This document shows, piece by piece, positions 6,257-40,351 of a stretch of 64,000 nt of DNA. The notes under the pieces are model-generated. The model was not told the origin of the DNA. It saw nothing but the letters and a program-made list of their open reading frames with translations, and did no database searches. Made by a program: the position numbers and the translations under genes. Source of the DNA: Zhongshania antarctica (GTDB taxonomy: Bacteria; Pseudomonadota; Gammaproteobacteria; Pseudomonadales; Spongiibacteraceae); NCBI RefSeq assembly GCF_014202945.1, contig NZ_JACHHW010000001.1, positions 372,001 through 436,000 on the forward strand. Direction: 5' to 3'. Positions within the stretch are counted from its first letter, which is position 1, and each line of letters opens with the position of its first letter.

Positions 6257-7426
6257 ATGAGCAACTCCTACCCCACATTGAATTTTGGCCTTGGCGAAGA
6301 AATCGACATGTTGCGCGACGCCACCTACCAATTTGCCCAGGCGGAAATAGCGCCCCGCGCCGAGAGCATCGACAAAGACAATGCCTTCCCCATGGACTTA
6401 TGGCGCAAAATGGGCGATATGGGATTGCTCGGCATCACCGTTAGCGAAGAATTCGGCGGCAGCGATATGGGCTATTTGGCCCATGTTATTGCCATGGAAG
6501 AAATCAGCCGCGCCTCAGCGTCGGTGGGTCTTTCCTACGGTGCGCATTCCAACCTCTGCGTAAACCAGATTTTCAAAAACGGCACCCAAGCTCAAAAAGA
6601 AAAATACCTGCCCAAGCTCTGCTCTGGTGAACACGTCGGCGCGCTGGCCATGTCTGAGCCCAATGCCGGTTCCGATGTCGTGAGCATGAAACTCAAAGCC
6701 GAAAAACAAGGCGACCACTATGTGCTTAACGGCAACAAGATGTGGATCACCAACGGCCCCGATGCTAATACCTATGTGATCTACGCCAAGACCGATATCA
6801 ACGCCGGCCCACGAGGTATGACCGCATTTATAGTAGAGCGCGACTACCCCGGTTTTAGCCGCTCACCAAAGCTCGACAAACTCGGCATGCGCGGTTCCAA
6901 CACCTGCGAACTCGTGTTTGAAGACTGCAAAGTGCCCGCCGAGAATATCCTCGGCAAAGAAGGTGAAGGCGTCAAAGTATTAATGAGCGGCCTCGACTTT
7001 GAGCGCACCGTTTTGTCCGGCGGCCCCACCGGCATTATGCAAGCCTGTATGGACGTGGTCGTACCCTATCTTCACGACCGCAAACAATTTGGCCAAAGCA
7101 TTGGTGAATTCCAGCTTATGCAGGGCAAGCTCGCCGATATGTATACCGAACTCAATGCCAGCCGCGCCTATTTATACGCCGTCGCTCGGGCCTGTGATCG
7201 CGGCGAAGCCAGCCGTAAAGACGCCGCTGGCGTTATTCTTTACGCCGCAGAAAAAGCCACGCAAATGGCCCTGCAAGCCATCCAAACCTTAGGTGGCAAC
7301 GGCTACACCAATGAATTTCCCACAGGCAGATTACTGCGCGACGCCAAACTATATGAAATTGGCGCAGGCACCTCAGAAATTCGCCGCATGCTCATTGGCC
7401 GCGAATTATTTAAAGAAACCGTTTAA
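6257..7426 (+). CDS. liuA: Isovaleryl-CoA dehydrogenase
   Basis: A 389-residue FAD-dependent acyl-CoA dehydrogenase oxidising isovaleryl-CoA to 3-methylcrotonyl-CoA in leucine breakdown and passing electrons to ETF. The signature [11 protein letters not shown] and the flavin motif MWITNG are present. The diagnostic feature is the base position: Glu249 in [13 protein letters not shown] matches the helix-G catalytic glutamate of isovaleryl-CoA dehydrogenases. The C-terminal motif reads [12 protein letters not shown], with Gly where medium- and short-chain enzymes carry their base. It starts 42 bp after liuR with weak SD-like AGGGCACCC before the ATG, and the MCC beta gene follows. Confidence 0.95.
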
Positions 7427-7477
7427 ATAAATTACGCACCACTAACAAACGCCCAGCGAACAAAAGGCACAAGGGAA

Positions 7478-9085
7478 ATGACCGTACTCAAATCCAAAAT
7501 CAATAGCCGCGACCCCAGCTTTGCTGAAAACGCGGCACATATGCAAGCCCAGGTCGACGACTTACAAAAGATCATTGCCGCGACCACCTTAGGCGGCGGC
7601 GAAAAGTCCCAGCGCCGTCATACCGAGCGCGGCAAGCTGCTGCCTCGCGAGCGCATCAACGTTTTGCTGGACGTCGGCACCCCCTTTTTAGAACTGTCGC
7701 AATTAGCAGCATATGAGGTCTATAAAGAAGAACTCGCCGCGGGGGGCATCATCACCGGTATCGGCAGAATCTGCGGCCAAGAATGCATGGTGATTGCCAA
7801 TGACGCTACCGTAAAAGGTGGCAGTTATTTTCCGCTAACCGTAAAAAAACACCTGCGCGCCCAAACCATTGCCCAAGAGAATCACCTGCCCTGTATTTAT
7901 TTGGTGGACTCCGGCGGCGCAAATTTGCCCCGCCAAGACGAGGTCTTTCCTGACCGCGAACACTTTGGTCGCTTCTTTTTCAATCAGGCCAACATGTCGG
8001 CCATGGGTATTCCCCAAATTGCCGTGGTCATGGGCAGCTGCACCGCCGGTGGCGCGTATATTCCGGCCATGGCTGACGAATCGATTATTGTGCGCGAACA
8101 AGGCACCATCTTTTTAGCCGGGCCGCCGCTGGTAAAAGCCGCAACAGGTGAAGTCGTGAGCGCCGAAGATCTTGGCGGCGCCGATGTCCATTGCCGCACC
8201 TCTGGCGTTGCCGACCACTACGCCCAAAACGATCATCACGCCCTGCAATTAGCGCGCAACGCCGTAAAGCGTTTAAACCGTCGTAAACCACAGTCTTTAG
8301 ACGTGGCCCCCAGCCAAGAGCCAGCCTACCCTGCTGACGAAATCTACGGCATCATTCCCAAAGACAGCCGCAAGCCCTACGACGTGCGCGAAATTATTGC
8401 CCGCGTCGTTGACGGCTCAGACTTTGATGAATTTAAAGCCCTCTACGGCACCACCTTAATTTGCGGCTTTGCCCGCATTTTTGGTTATCCCGTCGGCATC
8501 GTCGCCAATAACGGTATTTTGTTTTCTGAATCGGCCCAAAAAGGCACGCACTTTATTGAGCTGTGCGCCCAGCGCAAAATTCCGCTGATCTTTTTACAAA
8601 ACATCACCGGCTTTATGGTGGGTCAGCAATACGAAGCCGGCGGTATTGCCAAGCACGGCGCAAAAATGGTGATGGCCGTGGCCTGCGCTAAAGTCCCCAA
8701 ACTCACGGTATTGATCGGCGGTTCTTTTGGCGCCGGCAACTACGGCATGTGTGGCCGCGCCTACGACCCGCGCTTTATGTTTATGTGGCCCAATGCCCGT
8801 ATTTCCGTTATGGGCGGCGAGCAAGCGGCTGGGGTAATGGCGCAAATAAAACGCGACCAATACGAGCGTGAAAATCAAGACTGGCCAGCAGAAGAAGAAA
8901 AAGCTTTTAAACAGCCGATCCTCGACACGTATGAGAAGCAAGGTCACCCCTATTACGCCTCGGCGCGGCTGTGGGACGACGGCGTGATCGACCCCGCCGA
9001 CACCCGCATGGTATTGGGTTTGAGCTTGTCGGCCAGTTTGAACAAGCCAATTGAAGACAGCAAATTTGGCGTATTCAGAATGTAA
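7478..9085 (+). CDS. liuB: Methylcrotonyl-CoA carboxylase, carboxyltransferase (beta) subunit
   Basis: The 535-residue protein is the carboxyltransferase half of 3-methylcrotonyl-CoA carboxylase. It transfers CO2 from carboxybiotin to 3-methylcrotonyl-CoA to give 3-methylglutaconyl-CoA. Two crotonase-like halves are present: the N-terminal half with [11 protein letters not shown] and [13 protein letters not shown], and the C-terminal half with [11 protein letters not shown] and [20 protein letters not shown]. Length and motifs match MCC beta. AAGGGAA precedes the ATG. The alpha subunit follows after 66 bp with no liuC hydratase gene between them, which differs from the common liuABCDE order. 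Geranyl-CoA carboxylase (AtuC) is a homologue, but the surrounding liu genes favour MCC. Confidence 0.95.
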
Positions 9086-9151
9086 ATTCAATGCCTCGCC
9101 AAAAAGCGACACAACCGTATATTCCGTATTCCAAACAGTGGAAACGCAAAC

Positions 9152-11161
9152 ATGTTCGATAAAATTTTAATTGCTAACCGTGGCGAAATTGCCTGCCGTG
9201 TTATTAAAACTGCCCGCCGTATGGGTGTGCGCACCGTGGCCGTATACAGCGACGCCGATCGCAATGCCCTGCACGTGAGCATGGCCGACGAAGCCATTCA
9301 CATTGGTGGCTCCGCAGCACGGGACTCCTACTTAGATATTGAGAAAGTCATCGCCGCCGCAAAGAAATCTGGCGCCCAAGCCATTCACCCTGGCTACGGG
9401 TTTTTATCAGAAAACGCCGCCTTTTGCCGTCGCTGCGCCGCCGAGAATATTGTTTTCATTGGGCCGCCTACGCCAGCGATTGAAGCCATGGGCTCGAAAT
9501 CCGCCGCCAAACAAATCATGGAAAAAGCCGGTGTGCCACTGGTGCCCGGTTACCACGGCGACGATCAAGACCCTGAGATAATTCGCAAAGCCGCCAACGA
9601 TATGGGCTACCCCGTATTGCTCAAGGCAACCGCGGGCGGCGGCGGTAAAGGTATGCGCCAAGTATGGAGCGCAGAAGAGTTTGACTCTGCCCTAGCGGCT
9701 GCCAAGCGCGAAGCCATGAACGGTTTTGGCGACGACACCATGCTAGTGGAGAAATACCTCACCCAGCCTCGCCATATTGAAATTCAAGTGTTCTGCGACA
9801 GCCACGGCAATGCGGTGTATTTATTCGAGCGCGACTGTTCTATTCAACGCCGCCACCAAAAAGTGGTGGAAGAAGCGCCCGCACCGGGCATGACCGAAAC
9901 CCTTCGCGCGGAAATGGGGCAAGCCGCCGTGCGCGCCGCCCAGGCCATTGACTATATTGGCGCCGGCACCGTTGAGTTTCTCCTCGACGTTGATGGCAGC
10001 TTCTACTTTATGGAAATGAATACCCGCCTACAGGTGGAACACCCAGTCACCGAAATGATCACCGGCCTCGATCTGGTTGAGTGGCAGCTGCACGTTGCTG
10101 CTGGCGGCACCCTGCCCCTTAAGCAAAACGAATTGCAAATCAATGGCCACGCCATTGAAGTGCGTATTTACGCCGAAGACCCAGACAATGAATTTTTACC
10201 GCAAACGGGTAAGCTACACTTTTTAGAAACCCCCGCAGAATCCGAGCATGTGCGCATCGATACAGGCGTTATTGAAGGTGATGAGGTCAGCGTTTTTTAT
10301 GACCCCATGATCGCCAAACTTATTGTCTGGGACAGCAATCGCCAGCAAGCCCTGCGCCGGCTAAGTACTGCATTAAAAGACTATCGACTAAACGGGGTCA
10401 CCACCAATATCGATTTTCTCTACACCCTAATTAGCCACCCCGCATTTTGCAGCGCCGATTTCGACACGGGCTTTATTGGTAAACACGAAGCCAGCTTGTT
10501 CAGCAAAACCGCCAGCCAGCTAGGCGACAACCTGCCCCTAGCGGCGCTCTATTTAATAATGCGCCAAAAACAAATCATTGCCGAGCGCGCCAGCCATAGT
10601 GTGGACGCCAATTCGCCGTGGAATAACGCCCACAGCTGGCGCCTGAATCAGCCGGCCCAACATCAATTTGATCTGCAATTTGGCGAGCAAGTCATCGCCA
10701 TTAGCGCCACCGCACAGTCATCCAACTCTAACGCCAGCTTTGTGATTCGCAGTGGCGACGCCGAATTCACGGTCAGCGGTGAATTGCAGGGGCGTGTGCT
10801 GCTGGCCGATATTAACGGCCACCGGCAGAGCGTCAGCGTGTCTGAACACGATGGCGGCTACAGCATGTACAGCACTGAGCGCGCCGTGCACTTCAATATA
10901 AAACGTCCGGACTTAGGCGACGACAACGGCGACGCGACCGAGAATCAATTAGTCGCCCCCATGAACGGCACCGTAGTCAGCCATTTGGCTACGGTCGGCA
11001 GCGCTGTGAAAAAAGGCGATCCGCTACTGATTATGGAAGCTATGAAAATGGAGCACACCATTCGCGCCCCAAGCGACGGCACGGTAAAAGCTTTTTATTA
11101 CCAGCCCGGCGAATTGGTCAGCGGTGGCGCCGAATTACTGCAGCTAGAGGCCGCTGAATGA
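9152..11161 (+). CDS. liuD: Methylcrotonyl-CoA carboxylase, biotin-containing (alpha) subunit
   Basis: The 669-residue protein holds a biotin carboxylase at about residues 1-446, beginning [18 protein letters not shown], with the ATP-grasp loop GGGGKGM near residue 165 and the active-site stretch [15 protein letters not shown] linker follows, then a C-terminal biotin carrier domain in which EAMKMEH places the biotinylated lysine at Lys632. It charges biotin with bicarbonate using ATP and pairs with LiuB. The last codons overlap the liuE start, indicating translational coupling. Confidence 0.95.
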
Positions 11162-12063
11162 TGAATGCCAATATCCCCAGCAGCGTCCGTATTGTCGAGG
11201 TTGGCCCCCGCGATGGCCTGCAAAACGAAAAGCAGCCTATTGATATCGCCACCCGTGTGCAGCTAATCAATATGCTCACTGCCGCCGGTCTCAACACCAT
11301 TGAGGCTGGCAGTTTTGTGAACCCAGCGTGGGTACCGCAAATGGCCGGTAGCGAGGAGGTATTCAAGCAAATTGATCGCCTTCCCGGTGTTCGGTATGTG
11401 GCACTGGTACCAAATAGTAAAGGCTTTGAGCGCGCCACTAGCGCTAACGCCAATGAAGTCGCAATTTTCGCTGCAGCCTCAGAAGGCTTTAGCCAAAAGA
11501 ATATTAATTGCAGTATTGATGAGAGCATTGACCGCTTTCTGCCAATCATGAAGGCAGCCAAAGCGATGGACATTCCGGTGCGCGGATACGTGTCTTGCGT
11601 ACTCAGCTGTCCTTACGAAGGTGAAATAGACCCACAAAAAGTCGCTCAGGTTACCGCGCGTTTATTTGCGCTGGGCTGCTACGAAGTTTCCTTGGGTGAC
11701 ACCGTTGGCACCGGCACCCCCGCGTCGGTCAATCGCATGTTAGATGCCGTGCTAAAGATCGCCCCCGCCGAAAGGCTGGCAGTCCACTTTCACGACACCT
11801 ACGGCCAGGCCTTAGCCAATATTTACGCCTCACTGCAAAGGGGCATAGCGGTCATCGACAGCTCAATTGCAGGCTTGGGTGGCTGCCCCTATGCCAAAGG
11901 CGCAGCAGGCAATGTCGCGACCGAAGACCTCGTCTATATGCTCAATGGCCTGGGTATTCACCACGGTGTGAATCTCAACAAACTCATCGCGGCGGGTCAG
12001 TTCATTAGTGAAAAACTAAATCGACAAAGTGGTTCAAAAGTCGCCCTCGCCGCTAGCCGATAA
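11158..12063 (+). CDS. liuE: Hydroxymethylglutaryl-CoA lyase
   Basis: This 301-residue TIM-barrel enzyme cleaves 3-hydroxy-3-methylglutaryl-CoA to acetoacetate and acetyl-CoA, the last step of leucine breakdown. [11 protein letters not shown] holds the metal- and substrate-binding Asp, HFHDTYGQA supplies metal-ligand histidines, and the signature [14 protein letters not shown] carries catalytic Cys243. Two adjacent ATG codons (11158 and 11161) overlap the liuD stop, and GAGG lies 7 bp before the first. The 3-methylglutaconyl-CoA hydratase that should supply its substrate is missing from the cluster. Confidence 0.95.
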
Positions 12064-31594: not shown

Positions 31595-32362
31595 CTATTT
31601 TCTAAACTGTTTAAAGTCAGGTTTGCGCTTTTCCATAATGGCCATTACCGCTTCAATATTTTCTGGGCTGCCCGCCAATCGCGCCATACCTTCGGTTTCG
31701 CCGCCCATGGCGGAGTGAATGGCTGCGCGGTGAACATTGCGCATTAACTTTTTAGTTTCCACTAGGGAGTTGACCGGCCACTGGGCAATTTCGCGGGCTT
31801 TGCCCATTGCCTTGGCAAGGACCTCGTCATCACTAAACTGAGCCGTGGCAATACCTAAGCTGACTGCACGTTCTGCGTTTATCCACTCAGAGGTATACAT
31901 TAGTTCTGCGGCTTTACGGGCGCCAATAATCGCCTGTAATTGATAGCTACTGCCCCACTCTGGCACCAAACCCAATGCGGTAAAAGGGAAGCGTAAACGC
32001 AGACTCTCACCGACATAGATCACATCGGTATGCAGCAATAAGGTAGCGCCGCCACCAACGGCAACACCACAGGCGGCACTGATAACAGGTTTATCGAAAT
32101 CTACCAGCGCTTTTGCCGATATCGCAAAGGGATGTTCGCCATCTGACTCTGAAAAATCATTGAGATCTACCCCAGAGGAAAAGTCGTTACCTGCGCCAGT
32201 GATGACCACACAGGCAACTGCGGGATTCTCACCGGCGGCAATTAAAGCATCTCGAAACGCCAGCCACTGTTCATTACTAAAGGCGTTTTTTCTCTTGGGC
32301 CGGTTGAGGGTTAACAGCAATACGCCATCGTCGTCGAGTTGTTGTAGTACGGTGTCGCTCAT
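31595..32362 (-). CDS. Enoyl-CoA hydratase/isomerase (crotonase family)
   Basis: This 255-residue crotonase has SSGVDLNDF and AACGVAVGGGATLLL for the CoA oxyanion hole, and GLVPEWGSSYQL, whose Glu matches a catalytic glutamate of hydratases and isomerases. Expected chemistry is hydration or double-bond migration on an enoyl-CoA. It is the last gene of the minus-strand cluster reaching to 40.35 kb. A 7-bp repeat array sits between it and the nitroreductase gene upstream. It is one candidate for the hydratase missing from the liu cluster, but it lies with genes for another pathway. Confidence 0.9.
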   Translation of the reverse strand: MSDTVLQQLDDDGVLLLTLNRPKRKNAFSNEQWLAFRDALIAAGENPAVACVVITGAGNDFSSGVDLNDFSESDGEHPFAISAKALVDFDKPVISAACGVAVGGGATLLLHTDVIYVGESLRLRFPFTALGLVPEWGSSYQLQAIIGARKAAELMYTSEWINAERAVSLGIATAQFSDDEVLAKAMGKAREIAQWPVNSLVETKKLMRNVHRAAIHSAMGGETEGMARLAGSPENIEAVMAIMEKRKPDFKQFRK

Positions 32363-32474: not shown

Positions 32475-33149
32475 TTAATCATAAAATCGCACGCAGTCCG
32501 CCAACGCCGCCCGTTCAGTTCGACAGCTATTCACCGAGTCGCTGGTGTCTTCATAGCCAAATGAAAGGCCAAACAGAAGCTTATTACTGGGGTCGATGCC
32601 GAGCTCCTCGCGCACTATGTCGCAGTTAAAACTCAAGGCAGTTTGCGGACAGCTGGCTAGGCCATGAGCAGTAAGACTAAGCATGAGGGTTTGAGCATAC
32701 ATGCCCAAGTCGGCGGCCTCACGCAGGCCGAAACCCTCAGGCAAGAAGAGAAAAGCGACGTGGGGCGCACCAAAGAAGGTAAAATTATTGGCAAACTGTT
32801 CGCTACGGGCCGCTTTATCATCGCGACGAATACCCATTGCGCCATACAATGTTGCGGCGGCGGCGTATTGCCGCTCTTTATAAACACCGGCGTATTTGCC
32901 GTCGTAGGGAAAGTCCATTGTCCAGGCGCCGCTGTTAAAGGCGTGTGGGATTTTATTGCGCAACCGTTCTATGGATTCACCACTTGCTACAGCGACCTGC
33001 CAAGGCTGGGTGTTGCAGTTGGAGGGCGCCTGTTGCGCGGAGGTGAATGCTGCCTCTAATATTGCGCGGTCTACTGGCGCGGGCAAAAAACTGCGCACCG
33101 AGCGACGCTGCTGTACAACTGCTGAAAATATTGCTGCTGATTCGGACAT
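32475..33149 (-). CDS. Nitroreductase-family flavoprotein
   Basis: This 224-residue FMN-dependent oxidoreductase opens VVQQRRSVRSFLPAP, with the conserved arginines that bind FMN phosphate, then QQAPSNCNTQPWQVAVA and a C-terminal GLSFGYEDT. The family reduces nitro compounds, enones or quinones with NAD(P)H. Its start is 1 bp after the racemase stop, so it is co-transcribed with acyl-CoA genes and may reduce a ring or enone intermediate. Confidence 0.9.
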   Translation of the reverse strand: MSESAAIFSAVVQQRRSVRSFLPAPVDRAILEAAFTSAQQAPSNCNTQPWQVAVASGESIERLRNKIPHAFNSGAWTMDFPYDGKYAGVYKERQYAAAATLYGAMGIRRDDKAARSEQFANNFTFFGAPHVAFLFLPEGFGLREAADLGMYAQTLMLSLTAHGLASCPQTALSFNCDIVREELGIDPSNKLLFGLSFGYEDTSDSVNSCRTERAALADCVRFYD

Positions 33150-33150
33150 T

Positions 33151-34302
33151 TTAATCTGCCTGTTTTACGGCGCCGTTCGCCATTAGCTCTGCAATTACCG
33201 ATGCATCGAAGCCGAGCTGCTGTAACAGTGCGCGGGAGTCTTGCCCCTCTGCGATGGGGCCGTGTTTGAGTTCACCCGGCGTACGCGAAAACCGTGGCGC
33301 GGGTGCCGATTGTAAAACGCCATCGCGGCGCACTAAGTTTTGACGGTGCTGATTATGGGCGTGGGTCTCCGCTTCGTCTAGATCTAAGACCGGTGCAAAA
33401 CAGGCGTCGCTACCTGCAAAAACATCACACCACTGCTCGCGGGTTTTCTCTAGAAAACGCGCTGCCATCGCCGCTCTGCGCTCTGGCCACGCCGCTTTAT
33501 TCATTTGGTTCAAATAGTCGGTGGCGCCAAAATCAAGCTCGAGCTTGTCTAGGAGCTGCGCATAGAAATGCGGCTCTACCGCGCCGACTGACACCGAGCG
33601 GCCATCTTTGCAGAGGTAGTTTCGGTAGTACGGCGCGCCGCCATCCAGTAAATTTTGCTCGCGTTGGTTTTCCCAAAAGCCAATGCCTTTCAGACCGTGA
33701 ATGGTGCTGAGCAATGAAATTGCGCCGTCACAAATGGCTGCATCAACAACTTGGCCACGCCCAGATTGATGACGTTCTAATAAAGCCGACAATATTCCCA
33801 GCAATAAGAACATGGAGCCGCCGCCCAGGTCACCAATGACGTTAAGGGGCACCGGCGGCGCCTCATTGGCATTGCCAAAGCTGTCGAGCATTCCGGTTAT
33901 AGCAATGTAATTAAGGTCGTGGGCGGCGGTTTTGGCCAGTGGCCCGTCTTGTCCCCAGCCGGTCATGCGCGCATAGACCAGGCGCGGATTGCGCTGAGCG
34001 CAAACGTCGGGGCCGAGCCCGAGCTTTTCCATGACACCGGGACGGAAACATTCAATAAGCACGTCGGCGTTTTCTAAAAGCTGCAATACAACATCGACCG
34101 CACCAGGCTTTTTGAGATCAAGGGCAATGGATTGCCGCCCGCGCGCCGTTACATCGCCGGGGTTCGCGCCCATACCGCCACCGCTGGCGCGGTCAATACG
34201 AATAACCTCGGCGCCCAGATCAGCCAATAACATACAGGCGTAGGGTGCAGGACCAATGCCTGCCATTTCAATAATGCGGATACCGCTTAGGGGGCCGGAC
34301 AT
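33151..34302 (-). CDS. Alpha-methylacyl-CoA racemase (CaiB/BaiF family)
   Basis: This 383-residue class III CoA-transferase-fold protein opens LSGIRIIEMAGIGPAPYACMLLADLGAEV... in the manner of racemases. The racemase catalytic pair is visible: His128 in AAHDLNYIA and Asp158 in IGDLGGGSMF, matching His126 and Asp156 of the mycobacterial enzyme. It inverts the alpha-methyl centre of 2-methylacyl-CoAs so that S-specific beta-oxidation can proceed, a step needed for steroid and isoprenoid side chains. A heptamer array lies 24 bp before its start. Formyl-CoA-type transferases are homologues but lack this His/Asp pairing. Confidence 0.88.
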   Translation of the reverse strand: MSGPLSGIRIIEMAGIGPAPYACMLLADLGAEVIRIDRASGGGMGANPGDVTARGRQSIALDLKKPGAVDVVLQLLENADVLIECFRPGVMEKLGLGPDVCAQRNPRLVYARMTGWGQDGPLAKTAAHDLNYIAITGMLDSFGNANEAPPVPLNVIGDLGGGSMFLLLGILSALLERHQSGRGQVVDAAICDGAISLLSTIHGLKGIGFWENQREQNLLDGGAPYYRNYLCKDGRSVSVGAVEPHFYAQLLDKLELDFGATDYLNQMNKAAWPERRAAMAARFLEKTREQWCDVFAGSDACFAPVLDLDEAETHAHNQHRQNLVRRDGVLQSAPAPRFSRTPGELKHGPIAEGQDSRALLQQLGFDASVIAELMANGAVKQAD

Positions 34303-34370: not shown

Positions 34371-35192
34371 TTATTCGCCCTTAAATACCGCGGGACGCTT
34401 CTCTTTGAAAGCGCGCATACCTTCTTTGGCATCTTTAGACGCGAATACTGGACCCGCCAGTTCATCGGATTTCTGCATGGCTTCGTCTTCGCTTAGGTGC
34501 TCGGTGTGCTCACGCAGAGAGCGCACCACTGCCTTCACGGCCAAGGGGCCGTTAGCGCAAATTTTAGCGGCAAATTTCTTGGCTTCATTAAGGGTTTCAC
34601 CCTTGGGCACCACGCGGTTGATTAAGCCAAACTCCAATGCCTGTTGAGCGCTGACACGGTCGCCGGTTAGCAGTATTTCTGCGGCAATGCAGTAGGGAAT
34701 TTGCTTGCGCAGGCGAATAGTCGAGCCCGACATTGGGTAAAGCCCGCGTGCCACTTCGGTAACGCCAAAGATGGCATCTTCGGCAGCGACGCGAATATCG
34801 GTGCCTTGCAGTATCTCGGTGCCACCGGCCAGCGCATAGCCTTCTACCGCCAGAATAATGGGCTTGCAGGGGCGATTTTCCCGCAATAACGCCTGCCAAT
34901 GCACATTGGGCACCGTGGCCATAATAGTCATGAACTCTTCCGCGGTGGCTTGGTCGCCATCGGGACCAACTTTTAAATCCATACCGGCACTGAAGGTATC
35001 GCCCTTGGCCGTGATAATAGCACAATAAAGATTATCGTCTTCGTCGAGTAGACGCCAGGCTTTGTACATACCGAGCAGCATTTCTGAGCTAAACGCATTT
35101 TTCGCTTCAGGCCGATTTAAGGTAACAATTAAAACATTGCCCTCTTGTTCGACGAGGCAGTGCTTGGTGCTGATGTTTAATTCTGTTGGCAT
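34371..35192 (-). CDS. Enoyl-CoA hydratase/isomerase (crotonase family)
   Basis: This 273-residue crotonase has FSAGMDLKVG and EGYALAGGTEILQGTD for the oxyanion hole and GVTEVARGLYPMSGS, where a glutamate occupies one catalytic position. It ends AFKEKRPAVFKGE, a common crotonase C-terminus. It differs clearly from the crotonase at 31595. It lies between the acyl-CoA ligase and racemase genes. A GGGAGAC repeat region precedes it and a GACGTCN array follows it. Confidence 0.9.
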   Translation of the reverse strand: MPTELNISTKHCLVEQEGNVLIVTLNRPEAKNAFSSEMLLGMYKAWRLLDEDDNLYCAIITAKGDTFSAGMDLKVGPDGDQATAEEFMTIMATVPNVHWQALLRENRPCKPIILAVEGYALAGGTEILQGTDIRVAAEDAIFGVTEVARGLYPMSGSTIRLRKQIPYCIAAEILLTGDRVSAQQALEFGLINRVVPKGETLNEAKKFAAKICANGPLAVKAVVRSLREHTEHLSEDEAMQKSDELAGPVFASKDAKEGMRAFKEKRPAVFKGE

Positions 35193-35309: not shown

Positions 35310-36941
35310 CTAGGCCACTGCGCCCTTGCCACTTTCTGCAAAAGCCTTGGCCGTCTTGTAATCTGGCTTGCCGCTTGGCGCACGTGGCAGCTCTTCAATA
35401 AGGTGAATTTCGCGGGGGACTTTATAGCCCGCAATATGTTTACGGCAGTGTTCTTGCACATTATTCAGGTCGAGTTTTATACCTTTACGCGCCTGAATAA
35501 CGGCGCTAACACGACTACCCCATCGGTCATCAGCAACACCGACCACAAGTGCATCAAAAATACCTTCATGGGCTTTGAGCGCGACTTCAACTTCTTCGGG
35601 GAAGATTTTCTCGCCGCCACTATTGATGCAGTTAGAGCCACGGCCAAATACGGTTATTGAGCCATCGTCCTCGAGCTTGGCGGCGTCGCCAGTCAGTAAC
35701 CAACGCTTGCCATCAACCTCCAAGAAGGTTTTTGCCGTTTTAACGGGGTCATTGTAGTAACCCATAGGGATATAACCCGCGCGAGCAAAAATACCGGTTT
35801 CACCCATTTCAGCATGGCGTGGGGCCTTGCCCTCTTCCTCGACAATGACATCCATATAATCTGTGCGGCTGACATTCCCCAAACCAGAAGCAGTTTTTTT
35901 GCTGCCGTTGTCCATACCCATTTGGCCGCCCTCAGAGGAACCAAAGGCATTGGTGATAAAGACATTGGGGAAAAACTTTTTAAAGGCGTCTTGTTTTGCT
36001 TCAGAAAAAATTGCACCACCAGAGCCAACATTGAATACATTGGATAAATCCCAGCGATCTGGGTTTGCGGCCAAGCTATCCAGCAGAGGAATAGCCATGG
36101 CGTCGCCGACAATCTGTACCGCATGCACTTTCTCATCGGCAACAATTTGCCAAACTTTATCGCCGTCAAAGGATCGGTTGTGATTCAGAACCAAGGTATT
36201 GCCAGCGAGCAATTGAATACAGGCATACCACCAAGAGGCGCCGTGCATCAATGGCGCCAGGGCGATCCCGCGCAAGGGATTTTCCATCACTCGCTCGCGA
36301 ATATCCTCAGGCTTTTCGCATGCCCCCAGTGGCGAGAAGTGGCCACCGCCGCCCATCGCTGCAAAGAATACGTTTTTATGCGGCCACATTACGCCCTTGG
36401 GCATACCTGTGGTGCCACCGGTATAGAGAATAAAGTAATCCTCATCAGCGCGTTCGGCAAAATCACGGGCCTTACTTTGGCTTTCGCTAGCGTTGTGATA
36501 ATCAACTGCACCAATTAGCGACAGATCTTCATTGGTTTCGTCGGCCACCGAAACAAAGATTTTCAGTTTTTTAGCCGCATCGCGAACTTCAGCAATGGCG
36601 GGGATAAATTCGCGATGATGGATACAGGCCACCATGTCGGCATTATCAAAAATATAGAGCAACTCATCTTTTACATAGCGATAATTTACGTTAATGGGTA
36701 CCGCACGAATTTTAAAACAGGCGAGCATCGCTTCCAGATACTCACTGCAGTTGTACATATACAAACCGACATGATCACCAGCTTTTACACCCTGCGCCGC
36801 AAGATAATGCGCCATTTGGTTGGCGCCCGCATCTAAGTCTGCAAAGCTGCTGCGCCGATCGCCACAAACCAAGGCTTCGCGCTCAGGTACTTTGTCAGCT
36901 ACGGCTTCGAATAAATCGGCAAGATTAAAGTGCATTCCCAT
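35310..36941 (-). CDS. Acyl-CoA synthetase (AMP-forming)
   Basis: This adenylate-forming ligase of about 543 residues activates a carboxylic acid to its CoA thioester. The P-loop LYTGGTTGMPKG is at about residues 172-183, FGSSEGG and WLLTGDAAKLEDDGSITVFGR follow, and the catalytic lysine lies in APSGKPDYKTAK near the end. The frame extends to 37028, but ATG 36941 has AAGGA 7 bp upstream and gives the family's usual N-terminus MHFNLADLFEAVAD. In this cluster it would charge the carboxylated side chain that the racemase and thiolase-fold enzymes then process. Confidence 0.92.
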   Translation of the reverse strand: MGMHFNLADLFEAVADKVPEREALVCGDRRSSFADLDAGANQMAHYLAAQGVKAGDHVGLYMYNCSEYLEAMLACFKIRAVPINVNYRYVKDELLYIFDNADMVACIHHREFIPAIAEVRDAAKKLKIFVSVADETNEDLSLIGAVDYHNASESQSKARDFAERADEDYFILYTGGTTGMPKGVMWPHKNVFFAAMGGGGHFSPLGACEKPEDIRERVMENPLRGIALAPLMHGASWWYACIQLLAGNTLVLNHNRSFDGDKVWQIVADEKVHAVQIVGDAMAIPLLDSLAANPDRWDLSNVFNVGSGGAIFSEAKQDAFKKFFPNVFITNAFGSSEGGQMGMDNGSKKTASGLGNVSRTDYMDVIVEEEGKAPRHAEMGETGIFARAGYIPMGYYNDPVKTAKTFLEVDGKRWLLTGDAAKLEDDGSITVFGRGSNCINSGGEKIFPEEVEVALKAHEGIFDALVVGVADDRWGSRVSAVIQARKGIKLDLNNVQEHCRKHIAGYKVPREIHLIEELPRAPSGKPDYKTAKAFAESGKGAVA

Positions 36942-37150: not shown

Positions 37151-38314
37151 TTAAGGCTTGTCGGCACTCACTACCCACATTGAGAAGAACTGGGCACCAC
37201 CGCCATAGGCATGACCTAATGCCGTTTTTGCGCCCTCTACCTGGTGGCCATGAGCTTCACCGCGCACTTGCTGAGCCGCTTCAGCAAAGCGAATCATACC
37301 GGAAGCGCCGATCGGATTTGATGACAAGACCCCACCAGAGCAATTCCACGGTATATCACCGCCTTCAATCAAGGAGGTTGCATTATTCATGGTTAATTCC
37401 CAGCCCTTGCCAACATCCGCAAAACCAAGGTTTTCAAGCCACATAGGTTCGTACCAGGAAAACGGCACATAGACCTCAGCGCAGTCCAGATCTTTGCGGG
37501 GATTGTGTATACCAGCTTGGGCATACACATCTTTGGCGCAGTCGATACCAGCCTGAGGGTTAACCTGTTCGCGACCAGCATACATGGTCGGCTCAGAACG
37601 CATAGCGGTACCGCGAATCCAAGCGGGTTTGCGCGGCGATTTTGTGGCCAAATCTTCATTGGCGATAATCATTGCACAAGCACCGTCAGAGGAAGGACAG
37701 GCTTCCAAAAAGCGCAGCGGCTCCCAGAGCATAGGACTGTCTTCCACTTCTTTCATGGTGATATTGGGCAGCTGCAAATGTGCCAAGGGGTTTCTGGCAC
37801 CGTGTAGACGGTCCTTCACTGCGACTTTAATACCGGCGTCATAGGGCGCGTCGGAGCGGCGCATATACTCGCGAATAATTGGCGCGAAATAACCACCGGC
37901 ACCGGCATTCAAGTGCGGCGAAAACGGCTGCGGGTTAGACAATGCCCACATGGCATTAGACTCTGACTGCTTTTCAAACGACACAGTTAATATGCGTTTA
38001 AACACGCCGCTCTGCACATAAGAAGCCGCCACAATGGCGGTAGAGCCGCCCACCGAACCCGCTGTGTGCACACGCAGCATAGGCTTACCGTTACACCCTA
38101 AGGCGTCGGTGAGGTAAAGCTCAGGCATGATAATGCCTTCAAACATATCCGGCGCTTTGCCTAGAATAACGGCATCGATGTCATCCCAGGTCAGATCAGC
38201 ATCTTCAAGTGCGGCGATAGCCGCCTCGCGCACTAAGCCTGCAATCGAAACGTCTTTACGTTTGGTTTTATATTTGGTTTGGCCTACGCCAACAACCGCT
38301 GCTAACTGGGCCAT
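37151..38314 (-). CDS. Thiolase-fold protein lacking the nucleophilic cysteine
   Basis: This protein of about 387 residues is of the SCP-x/lipid-transfer thiolase group. In canonical thiolases the nucleophile lies in an N-x-C-x-x-G-type motif; here the aligned stretch is HTAGSVGGSTA, with Ser87 where Cys is expected. The C-terminal part has NCSGGVLSSNPIGASG and ALGHAYGGGAQ. Such Cys-less members include the steroid side-chain aldolases (Ltp2-like) that cleave by retro-aldol chemistry with a DUF35 partner. The start ATG at 38314, with GGAGG 7 bp upstream, overlaps the upstream stop by 1 bp. Confidence is high for the fold, moderate for aldolase function. Confidence 0.85.
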   Translation of the reverse strand: MAQLAAVVGVGQTKYKTKRKDVSIAGLVREAAIAALEDADLTWDDIDAVILGKAPDMFEGIIMPELYLTDALGCNGKPMLRVHTAGSVGGSTAIVAASYVQSGVFKRILTVSFEKQSESNAMWALSNPQPFSPHLNAGAGGYFAPIIREYMRRSDAPYDAGIKVAVKDRLHGARNPLAHLQLPNITMKEVEDSPMLWEPLRFLEACPSSDGACAMIIANEDLATKSPRKPAWIRGTAMRSEPTMYAGREQVNPQAGIDCAKDVYAQAGIHNPRKDLDCAEVYVPFSWYEPMWLENLGFADVGKGWELTMNNATSLIEGGDIPWNCSGGVLSSNPIGASGMIRFAEAAQQVRGEAHGHQVEGAKTALGHAYGGGAQFFSMWVVSADKP

Positions 38315-39372
38315 TATTTCGCCTCCAATACGGTAACCAGATTTTGTTGTAGGCACGGGCCCGAGGTGGCGTGGGCAACGCCGCGCTTGGCTTCGCCGCG
38401 AATAATACGCATGGCCACTTCGCCAACGCGAGACAAGCCAGACGCCATCATCACATTGCCCGCCAACACCCCGCCTGAAGGGTTGATCACGGTGTCGTCG
38501 CTCAGACCCAAGGCCTGCTTGAGGATAATTTCCTGGTGACTAAAGGGTGCGTACAACTCAGCAACATCCACTGGCCCACTTGCCACACCAGCCGCTTTAC
38601 CGGCAATTTCGGTCGACACTGAGCGGCTCAAATCCCGCGAGCCGATATGGTGAGTCTCAATACGGTGATCGATGCCTTTAATGACGGCATAGGGCTTACC
38701 CCACTCTTCGGCTTTTTCTACTGTGCAAATAATCATTGCGCAGGCACCGTCGGAAATTGGGCAGCAGTCATGACGACGCAATGGCGACATATACATTGGC
38801 TCGTCTAATAGACTCGCGGCGTCACCGTCACTTTTAAGCTGGGCATAGGGATTACTCAAAGCGTTATTACGCGAGCGGGCAACCACTTCGGCCATGTCTA
38901 ACTCGGTGATCGCGCCGGAGTCCAACATGGTGCGCGCCTGCATCGCGGCAAAGGCGATGGAATCGACCCACAGAGGTGCTAGGTAGTAGGGGTCGAGCTG
39001 CTGGGACAAAACAATGGGTAGTTCACCCGGCGATGACTTGCCAAAGCCGTAGAGCAGTGCGGATTCCGCGTGGCCCATTTGAATTTTCAACCACGCTTCG
39101 TACAGCGCCCATGCCGCGTCCATTTCGACGTGGGATTCTTTAATTGGCGGCACCGCGCCAAGGGCGTCTACGCCGGCGACAAAGGCAAATGCCGCGCCCT
39201 GCTGGTAATCACAGCTACCAGAGCAGGTAAAGTCGACGTCTTGTGCATTCGTGATACCGGCCTGCTTATAGACTTCTTGCAGCACTGGCATAATCAGTTC
39301 TACTTCGTTTTGCGCACCAGCGTCGCGCTGGCAATTGGATTGCGCAAAGGCAACTATCGCAACATCACGCAT
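38314..39372 (-). CDS. Second thiolase-fold protein lacking the nucleophilic cysteine
   Basis: This shorter (352-residue) thiolase-like protein pairs with the one at 37151. The nucleophile region reads ESHVEMDAAWALYEAW, with no cysteine at the expected place, and the C-terminal half has NPSGGVLAGNVMMASG and HATSGPC. It opens MRDVAIVAFAQSNC. The gene starts 1 bp after the DUF35 stop and overlaps the next thiolase gene by 1 bp, so the three are translated as a set. It may be the partner subunit of a hetero-oligomeric lyase or a structural, non-catalytic member. Confidence 0.82.
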   Translation of the reverse strand: MRDVAIVAFAQSNCQRDAGAQNEVELIMPVLQEVYKQAGITNAQDVDFTCSGSCDYQQGAAFAFVAGVDALGAVPPIKESHVEMDAAWALYEAWLKIQMGHAESALLYGFGKSSPGELPIVLSQQLDPYYLAPLWVDSIAFAAMQARTMLDSGAITELDMAEVVARSRNNALSNPYAQLKSDGDAASLLDEPMYMSPLRRHDCCPISDGACAMIICTVEKAEEWGKPYAVIKGIDHRIETHHIGSRDLSRSVSTEIAGKAAGVASGPVDVAELYAPFSHQEIILKQALGLSDDTVINPSGGVLAGNVMMASGLSRVGEVAMRIIRGEAKRGVAHATSGPCLQQNLVTVLEAK

Positions 39373-39373
39373 C

Positions 39374-40351
39374 TTATTTGCCCTCGTCGATTAATTTTCC
39401 GATTTCGCTAAACGCCATATCCGGCTCGTCGATCGGTTTGAAATATCTGATGTTTTCCATGGCGTAGCCCCATTCTTCCTCGGGTTTCCACACGGCTTCA
39501 ACCCGCATACCAATACGCACATCTTCGTTCTTACATTCACTGAGCAAATGCAAGAAGCTTAAATTCGCGCCGTCTAATACTAGGTTAGCAATTACATACG
39601 GAGGCTTGATCGGGTTGCCTGGAATTGGAATATAGACAATGGTGAAGGACTCCACTGTGGCTTTATTGCCCAGCACGACCTCTTCTACCGTTGGCACGCC
39701 ACAGGCGGCACAGGAGCCACGCGGTGGAATATACACATTGCGGCAATTGGGGCAGCGCTGACCTACCAGTTGCCCTTTTTTAATGGAGTGTAAATACTGC
39801 GCCGTGGCCTTGCCCGCCGTAAAATTGTAGGTAAGGTAAATTGGCGCTTCCATACCAGTAATGGTGTCAGTTGCGTCATTGGGTTTTAAATCACCCAATA
39901 AGGCCATGGCATCAGGCACAAAGCCGTTGACATCGCCCATTAAACCCTTGGTTTCTTCGGCCCAGCGCACTTTAACGCGCATGCCCGTGCTCATTGCCAC
40001 TTCCTCACCGGCGTCAACCCAGTGCAGCATGGGCGTGTCGGCACCATCGAGCTGGATCATTGCCCAAGCAAAAGGCTTATCACTAGGGTGAGCTTTGCGA
40101 GGATGACTAACCCAGCACCAAGTTTTGACCACACCACTGTCGGGAAGATCGACAAATTCAGTCAATGCTGCAGCACTGACTGGATCGAACTCCACTGGTG
40201 GCATGAGTACCTTGCCATCGCTGGCTTTAATACCCACCATTTTGCGATTACGCAATGAGGTCAGGAACTGACCGACAATAGGCCCTGTCGAACGGGTATA
40301 CGTGTACCCGAGGGTAAAGGCCTGGCTAAGCACTTCAGCCGATGCAGCCAT
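39374..40351 (-). CDS. Double DUF35 (zinc-ribbon/OB-fold) protein
   Basis: This 325-residue protein has two DUF35-type units. The second (about 170-315) has a full zinc ribbon, CPNCRN then CAACG, followed by an OB-fold. The first (about 25-155) has the OB-fold but no cysteine pairs where the ribbon should be. DUF35 proteins bind thiolase-fold enzymes and help their acyl-CoA chemistry, as with Ltp2 in steroid side-chain cleavage and archaeal thiolase/HMG-CoA synthase. Placement directly before two thiolase-fold genes supports a three-protein complex, possibly one DUF35 unit per partner. Confidence 0.85.
   Translation of the reverse strand: MAASAEVLSQAFTLGYTYTRSTGPIVGQFLTSLRNRKMVGIKASDGKVLMPPVEFDPVSAAALTEFVDLPDSGVVKTWCWVSHPRKAHPSDKPFAWAMIQLDGADTPMLHWVDAGEEVAMSTGMRVKVRWAEETKGLMGDVNGFVPDAMALLGDLKPNDATDTITGMEAPIYLTYNFTAGKATAQYLHSIKKGQLVGQRCPNCRNVYIPPRGSCAACGVPTVEEVVLGNKATVESFTIVYIPIPGNPIKPPYVIANLVLDGANLSFLHLLSECKNEDVRIGMRVEAVWKPEEEWGYAMENIRYFKPIDEPDMAFSEIGKLIDEGK

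Follow-up and report, generated by a model that had tools for sequence, protein, structure and literature searches.

Sterols alkylated at C24 are the chief sterols of plants and many algae. Here we describe a locus that probably serves the breakdown of their branched side chain in the marine gammaproteobacterium Zhongshania antarctica, namely three tightly coupled genes encoding a tandem DUF35 protein and two thiolase-fold proteins, within a 64,000-nucleotide stretch of its genome (contig NZ_JACHHW010000001.1, positions 372,001 to 436,000; hereafter the window, from whose first letter coordinates are counted). The closest described system is the Rv3521-ltp4-ltp3 set of the Mycobacteriales (Rhodococcus, Mycobacterium). 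PMC6678751 describes Ltp3 and Ltp4 as a heteromeric aldol lyase cutting the C24-C25 bond of C24-branched sterols. PMC6593523 and PMC6273163 give the same role, all three citing Wilbrink 2012, and FadD19, Ltp3 and Ltp4 are reported as essential in actinobacteria for C24-branched sterols only. Phytosterol induced ltp3, ltp4 and fadD19 about 97-fold each and echA19 69-fold (PMC6593523). KstR binds upstream of Rv3515c/Rv3516 and at a site between Rv3520c and Rv3521 (PMC1995591). Rv3521 has been guessed to be a DNA binder like KstR (PMC9782250) and is otherwise a conserved hypothetical protein in the open-access literature searched.

Several other thiolase-fold enzymes with a DUF35 partner resemble the locus in part. 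Ltp2-ChsH2 (PDB 6ok1) also combines a Cys-less thiolase fold with DUF35, and like Ltp3 it has Gly where the Cys would be and Tyr at HDxF. Unlike the window's trio, it is a homodimer whose single type of DUF35 is fused to a MaoC hydratase, and it acts in the third side-chain cycle; Ltp2 has YDHF and Tyr344 where Ltp3 has YVPF and Asn333. Sal-Shy (PDB 9myr) is a thiolase-fold retro-aldolase, as proposed for Ltp3, with a Tyr base and a DUF35 partner; Sal is a homodimer acting on bile-acid C5 side chains, and its catalytic Cys304 (in YDCY) is Pro in Ltp3 and Ltp4. In the archaeal acetoacetyl-CoA thiolase/DUF35/HMG-CoA synthase complex (PDB 6esq), DUF35 joins two unlike thiolase-superfamily chains, but the thiolase partner has its Cys and condenses, and the DUF35 is single. 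Benzoylsuccinyl-CoA thiolase BbsAB (PDB 7pxp) likewise pairs a thiolase fold with a DUF35 zinc subunit, but keeps the Cys (SACSAG) and the HDAF and GHP motifs and has one thiolase-fold chain type.

Identification of the Rv3521-ltp4-ltp3 locus

The trio consists of the following genes:

39374..40351, minus strand: tandem DUF35 gene (Rv3521-type), 325 aa; a zinc-less DUF35a unit, then a zinc-ribbon DUF35b unit
38314..39372, minus strand: Ltp4 orthologue (PRK07937), thiolase fold without the catalytic Cys, 352 aa
37151..38314, minus strand: Ltp3 orthologue (PRK08313), thiolase fold without the catalytic Cys, candidate aldolase subunit, 387 aa

The tandem DUF35 and Ltp4 genes are 1 bp apart, and the Ltp4 and Ltp3 genes overlap by 1 bp. 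Ltp3 is counted from the ATG at 38314, as an alternative GTG (401 aa) would run into the upstream gene. An earlier note on this DNA had described 37151-40351 as a tightly coupled trio of a tandem DUF35 protein with one ribbon and two Cys-less thiolase-fold proteins; open reading frames, Pfam and alignment confirmed this description. The same note proposed a new lyase complex, a proposal we rejected because both thiolase-fold proteins belong to curated NCBIfam families (Ltp3-type, PRK08313, 657 bits against a cut-off of 514; Ltp4-type, PRK07937, 500 bits against 419) and share synteny with actinobacterial cholesterol clusters. Their orthologues, Ltp3 and Ltp4, already figure in the literature as aldol lyases acting on C24-branched sterols.

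The same three proteins, in the same order and beside FadD19 and EchA19, occur in actinobacteria. Compared with three successive genes on a plasmid of Tsukamurella, identity was 47% (tandem DUF35), 53% (Ltp4) and 62% (Ltp3), and this plasmid also bears kstR, an mce-like transporter and hsaEFG-, fadA5- and ipdAB-type genes. In Nocardia farcinica the order is FadD19-type ligase/EchA19, second ligase, F420 oxidoreductase, tandem DUF35, Ltp4, Ltp3, P450, FadA5 and IpdAB, in agreement with the published Mycobacterium tuberculosis (Mtb) genes Rv3515c-Rv3523. Rv numbers were assigned from this published gene order and from names, the direct comparison being with Tsukamurella and Nocardia proteins. 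The window differs from the Nocardia cluster, where the extra ligase and F420 oxidoreductase stand in between, and from the actinobacterial set generally, in that one compact operon also holds the ligase, hydratase and racemase. The order that marks the Rv3521 set (DUF35-DUF35, Ltp4, Ltp3, with FadD19- and EchA19-type genes near) was found here.

Phylogeny gave one Ltp3 and one Ltp4 group (support 100 each), both containing Tsukamurella, Nocardia and Streptomyces members and both apart from SCP2-thiolase, BbsB, archaeal thiolases and Ltp2. Grouping with ordinary Cys-containing thiolases, named beforehand as a possible refutation, was therefore not seen. Sequence comparison thus identifies the trio as orthologues of the actinobacterial Rv3521-ltp4-ltp3 set.

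Active sites of Ltp3 and Ltp4

Nucleophile positions were set by alignment with SCP2-thiolase, BbsB and archaeal thiolases, and Tyr282 by alignment with Ltp2:

38039..38074, minus strand: Ltp3 loop R81-V-H83-T-A-G86-S-V-G-G-S-T at the Cys position (RVHTAGSVGGST), invariant in 67-68/68 sequences
39118..39138, minus strand: Ltp4 loop E79-S-H81-V-E83-M-D85 at the thiolase Cys position, invariant in 77/77 sequences
37469..37471, minus strand: Ltp3 Tyr282, at the catalytic Tyr position of Ltp2 (Y294) and Sal (Y302), in 67/67 sequences with residues there

The thiolase Cys is replaced by Gly86 in Ltp3 and by Glu83 in Ltp4. HDxF has become YVPF (Y282) in Ltp3 and YAPF in Ltp4 (Y or H274), and GHP has become SNP and GNV, respectively, with Asn333 of Ltp3 and Asn306 of the window's Ltp4 (Asn or His306 across the Ltp4 set) at the His position. 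The CxG loop reads GHAYGGG in Ltp3 and AHATSG in Ltp4. Ltp3 keeps H83, Y282 and, in the last loop, H368; Ltp4 also has the loop residue H334. Although Ltp4 fell under the Pfam thiolase cut-offs, its AlphaFold model (AF2, pLDDT 87) was a full thiolase fold, nearest to 6esq (Z 43.9), with Z 36.5 to Sal and 36.1 to Ltp2. This fold, together with some Pfam thiolase domain matches, would suit canonical, acyl-transferring thiolases mis-scored by sequence. We consider that highly improbable and rejected canonical and SCP2 thiolases, because the nucleophilic Cys, CxG Cys, HDxF and GHP residues are replaced in homologues, with His persisting at the HDxF position in 34/77 Ltp4 relatives.

The active-site loops stood far above the rest of each protein in conservation (Ltp3, p 3e-9; Ltp4, 27/52 loop positions near-invariant versus 20% overall, p 9e-9). 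With an invariant ESHVEMD loop at the missing-Cys site, Ltp4 is, by its conservation, not a decayed protein. The open-access literature searched held no statement of this invariant non-thiolase loop, although subscription papers could hold one.

A search for the aldolase tyrosines, proposed in the earlier note, succeeded for the first (Y282 in Ltp3; Y or H274 in Ltp4), while the second position is Asn. An Ltp2-type aldolase was rejected on this ground, as neither YDHF nor a second Tyr344 was present (YVPF/Asn333 in Ltp3; YAPF/Asn306 in Ltp4), and on its partner, which is DUF35-DUF35 and not MaoC-DUF35. A Sal-type aldolase was rejected because Tyr282 is present but the YDCY Cys is Pro284. Residues equivalent to Tyr282 have been mutated (PMC12329534). 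Ltp3 is more likely than Ltp4 to be the aldolase subunit, judging from Gly86 in place of Cys and Tyr282 at the Ltp2/Sal catalytic-base position.

The tandem DUF35 protein and a four-part module

Pfam OB_ChsH2_C matched two stretches of the tandem protein and the zf-ChsH2 ribbon one, and the ribbon cysteines (CPNC...CAAC) were confined to the C-terminal unit:

39701..39754, minus strand: zinc ribbon C200-x2-C203...C214-x2-C217 of the DUF35b unit, from sequence

We surveyed the module in 80 named loci from Pseudomonadota, Actinomycetota, Myxococcota and Acidobacteriota. In 66/80 the 'tandem' protein is split into two neighbouring genes, DUF35a followed by DUF35b, the first matching the window's N-terminal unit (66/66) and the second its C-terminal unit (66/66). 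The zinc ribbon motif occurred in 0/83 DUF35a and 50/83 DUF35b units. The order DUF35a-DUF35b-Ltp4-Ltp3 was found in 66/66 split and all fused cases, wherever the contig reaches far enough. Since this order is kept across phyla and the active-site loops are invariant across 68-77 relatives, the trio is not a chance assembly.

The fused state was scattered on the concatenated tree, requiring 6 changes, at least 5 of them on well-supported branches (a quick tree, so that exact counts are uncertain); a single origin of the fusion was thus unsupported. In a Cellvibrionales clade (L054, L055, L056 and L060) the fused protein lacks zinc cysteines in DUF35b too (KAPGG... PATG). A metagenome-assembled genome titled Klebsiella pneumoniae (L094) has the module and groups with Pseudomonadales; its title is probably wrong. 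A 398-genome sample of Pseudomonadota held no copy other than the window's own.

In Ltp2-ChsH2 two DUF35 chains flank the thiolase-fold dimer (PMC11321319), and the simplest reading here is therefore DUF35-Ltp-Ltp-DUF35 with two unlike halves. This suggests a four-part, pseudo-symmetric heterotetramer in which each thiolase-fold subunit would carry its own DUF35. The suggestion of the earlier note that the two DUF35 units could have two different partners is strengthened by the finding that most relatives have two separate DUF35 genes beside two thiolase-fold genes. Neither this four-part architecture nor Rv3521 as a DUF35 lyase subunit is stated in the open-access literature searched, although subscription papers could hold such statements.

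Within this arrangement, Ltp4 and the zinc-less DUF35a might be non-catalytic halves that complete the dimer, with the chemistry left to Ltp3. We give this sub-case of our preferred reading somewhat less than an even chance. Ltp4 has none of the thiolase residues and, at 352 aa, falls 35 aa short of Ltp3, the ribbon is absent from every DUF35a unit, and the ChsH2 DUF35 domain has been reported as unimportant for aldolase activity (PMC11321319); the conservation of the Ltp4 loops, with their invariant His, Glu and Asp, argues against a passive Ltp4.

Neighbouring genes of the operon

Downstream of the trio lie five further genes:

35310..36941, minus strand: FadD19-type acyl-CoA ligase (PRK07798), 679 bits against a cut-off of 543
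34371..35192, minus strand: EchA19-like crotonase, 50% identity to the Tsukamurella protein in the EchA19 position
33151..34302, minus strand: alpha-methylacyl-CoA racemase (MCR/AMACR type), 374 bits to Mtb MCR (1x74)
32475..33149, minus strand: nitroreductase-like flavoprotein, weak NCBIfam matches
31595..32362, minus strand: second crotonase, kept with the operon

Against the two Nocardia ligases, that of the window scored 453 bits (the one next to echA19) and 126 bits (the second, FadD17-like one). The EchA19-like crotonase reached 326 bits to NCBIfam EchA19, under the cut-off of 400. The racemase had been credited in the earlier note with a complete His/Asp pair, which was borne out: both active-site residues of MCR were aligned and kept. 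The nitroreductase-like flavoprotein accompanies the operon in most gammaproteobacterial (Spongiibacteraceae, Halieaceae) copies. Elsewhere in the window, positions 6257-12063 hold a cluster of ordinary genes for leucine/isovaleryl-CoA degradation, encoding a dehydrogenase, carboxylase subunits and an HMG-CoA lyase, judged from translations.

Steroid genes in this genome and its relatives

KshA-, HsaC- and HsaA-like proteins are encoded 8-11 kb before the window, and the genome further encodes KstD-like, IpdABC, EchA20 and ChsE4/E5-like proteins. Homologues of KshA, KstD, HsaA, HsaC and IpdAB, as looked for in an aerobic 9,10-seco steroid degrader, are thus present. The loci nearest to the window's module are from Zhongshania and Spongiibacter. 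Among relatives, an HsaC-like match of at least 200 bits was found in 22/22 with Ltp4 versus 3/16 without (n = 38; Fisher p 1e-7, kinship ignored). The module also occurs in a genome named Halioglobus japonicus BC5_1. Judged from the name only, this is probably the Halieaceae sponge isolate BC51, which uses cholesterol for growth (PMC5790920).

The same complex and retro-aldol chemistry could instead act here on a branched acyl-CoA of non-steroid kind, an isoprenoid or a branched alkanoate. Some carriers sit outside an obvious steroid cluster (Streptomyces clavuligerus), one Zhongshania species is named for aliphatic degradation, and a zinc-ribbon DUF35 of the ChsH2/Shy type was not seen in the genome. 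We consider this substrate unlikely, given the company of FadD19-, EchA19- and MCR-type genes, the steroid-ring genes in the genome and the finding that Ltp4 and HsaC-like genes occur together in relatives.

At L164:6034-7700 (G000:C3:310034-311700) a second DUF35 protein, of 152 aa, accompanies a 'lipid-transfer protein' (PRK06059), the two being divergent from a ChsE4/ChsE5-like pair; the PRK06059 protein keeps the AACASG Cys and has YDLS and no GHP. The DUF35 and PRK06059 proteins may replace Ltp2/Sal, since a zinc-ribbon MaoC-DUF35 hydratase was not seen in the genome.

Proposed working of the complex

Taken together, we think it likely that the operon encodes, alongside a ligase (FadD19 type), a hydratase (EchA19-like) and a racemase (MCR type), the gammaproteobacterial (Zhongshania-type) form of the Rv3521-Ltp4-Ltp3 aldol lyase that acts in the catabolism of sterol side chains. 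In our analysis this is based on orthology, gene order, motifs, the modelled Ltp4 fold and the steroid-ring gene set; that growth on C24-branched sterols requires ltp3, ltp4 and fadD19 comes from published work on actinobacteria. The earlier view of a retro-aldolase with a Cys-less thiolase fold and DUF35 partners, directed at a steroid side chain, is well supported; the 17-hydroxy-steroid-CoA substrate suggested with it belongs to Ltp2.

For this organism we infer the following activity, residue roles, substrate and stoichiometry. The ligase would activate the C26 acid of a C24-alkyl sterol, and the racemase would set the C25 epimer, C25 epimerisation of C26-oyl-CoA being known chemistry of the MCR-type family. 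Dehydrogenation and hydration would then yield a tertiary 24-hydroxyacyl-CoA, for which thiolysis is impossible because it cannot be oxidised to a ketone. The Ltp3-Ltp4 complex would instead make a retro-aldol cut of C24-C25, releasing a short acyl-CoA, with H83 and H368 of Ltp3 as candidate acids and Ltp4 as an obligate partner with a distinct invariant site (E79/H81/E83/D85/H334). Each thiolase-fold subunit would hold one DUF35 unit, both units being in one chain here. More speculatively, and in our view doubtfully, two unlike non-thiolase sites might face each other in an asymmetric four-component enzyme, Ltp3 performing the retro-aldol step and Ltp4 (invariant ESHVEMD/HATSG loops) carrying out another reaction linked to it, e.g. 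hydration or decarboxylation, on one and the same branched intermediate, with a dedicated DUF35 for each subunit, of which one type usually binds zinc and the other does not.

Several observations weigh against the sterol aldol lyase proposed here. The acids of Ltp2 (Tyr344) and Sal (Cys304) have no equivalent in Ltp3 or Ltp4, so that the mechanism is not readable from the alignment and the aldolase role of Ltp3 is one we infer, although Y282 aligns. The AF2 model of the tandem DUF35 protein (9 sequences) had a pLDDT of 44, too poor to use, and the domain assignment therefore rests on Pfam and the split homologues. The HsaA- and HsaC-like proteins score under NCBIfam equivalog cut-offs, as does the KstD-like protein. 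The genome has just two zinc-ribbon DUF35 domains and no visible hydratase of the ChsH2/Shy type, so the rest of side-chain degradation seems unlike the model pathways. Finally, the published C24-branch route proposes carboxylation at C28 (PMC6678751), and no carboxylase gene lies within the operon, the only region searched for one.

Significance

As far as the open-access literature searched shows, bacterial removal of the C24 branch is known only genetically. Our comparison points to Rv3521 as a fusion of two DUF35 subunits that belong to the Ltp3-Ltp4 lyase, and names invariant residues as targets for mutation, with harmless marine bacteria as a source for purifying and testing the complex. 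The paired Cys-less thiolase-like enzymes on which actinobacteria, mycobacteria among them, depend for cutting branched plant and algal sterols also occur in a marine bacterium, and the comparison supplies a marker gene for the use of branched sterols by marine Spongiibacteraceae and Halieaceae.

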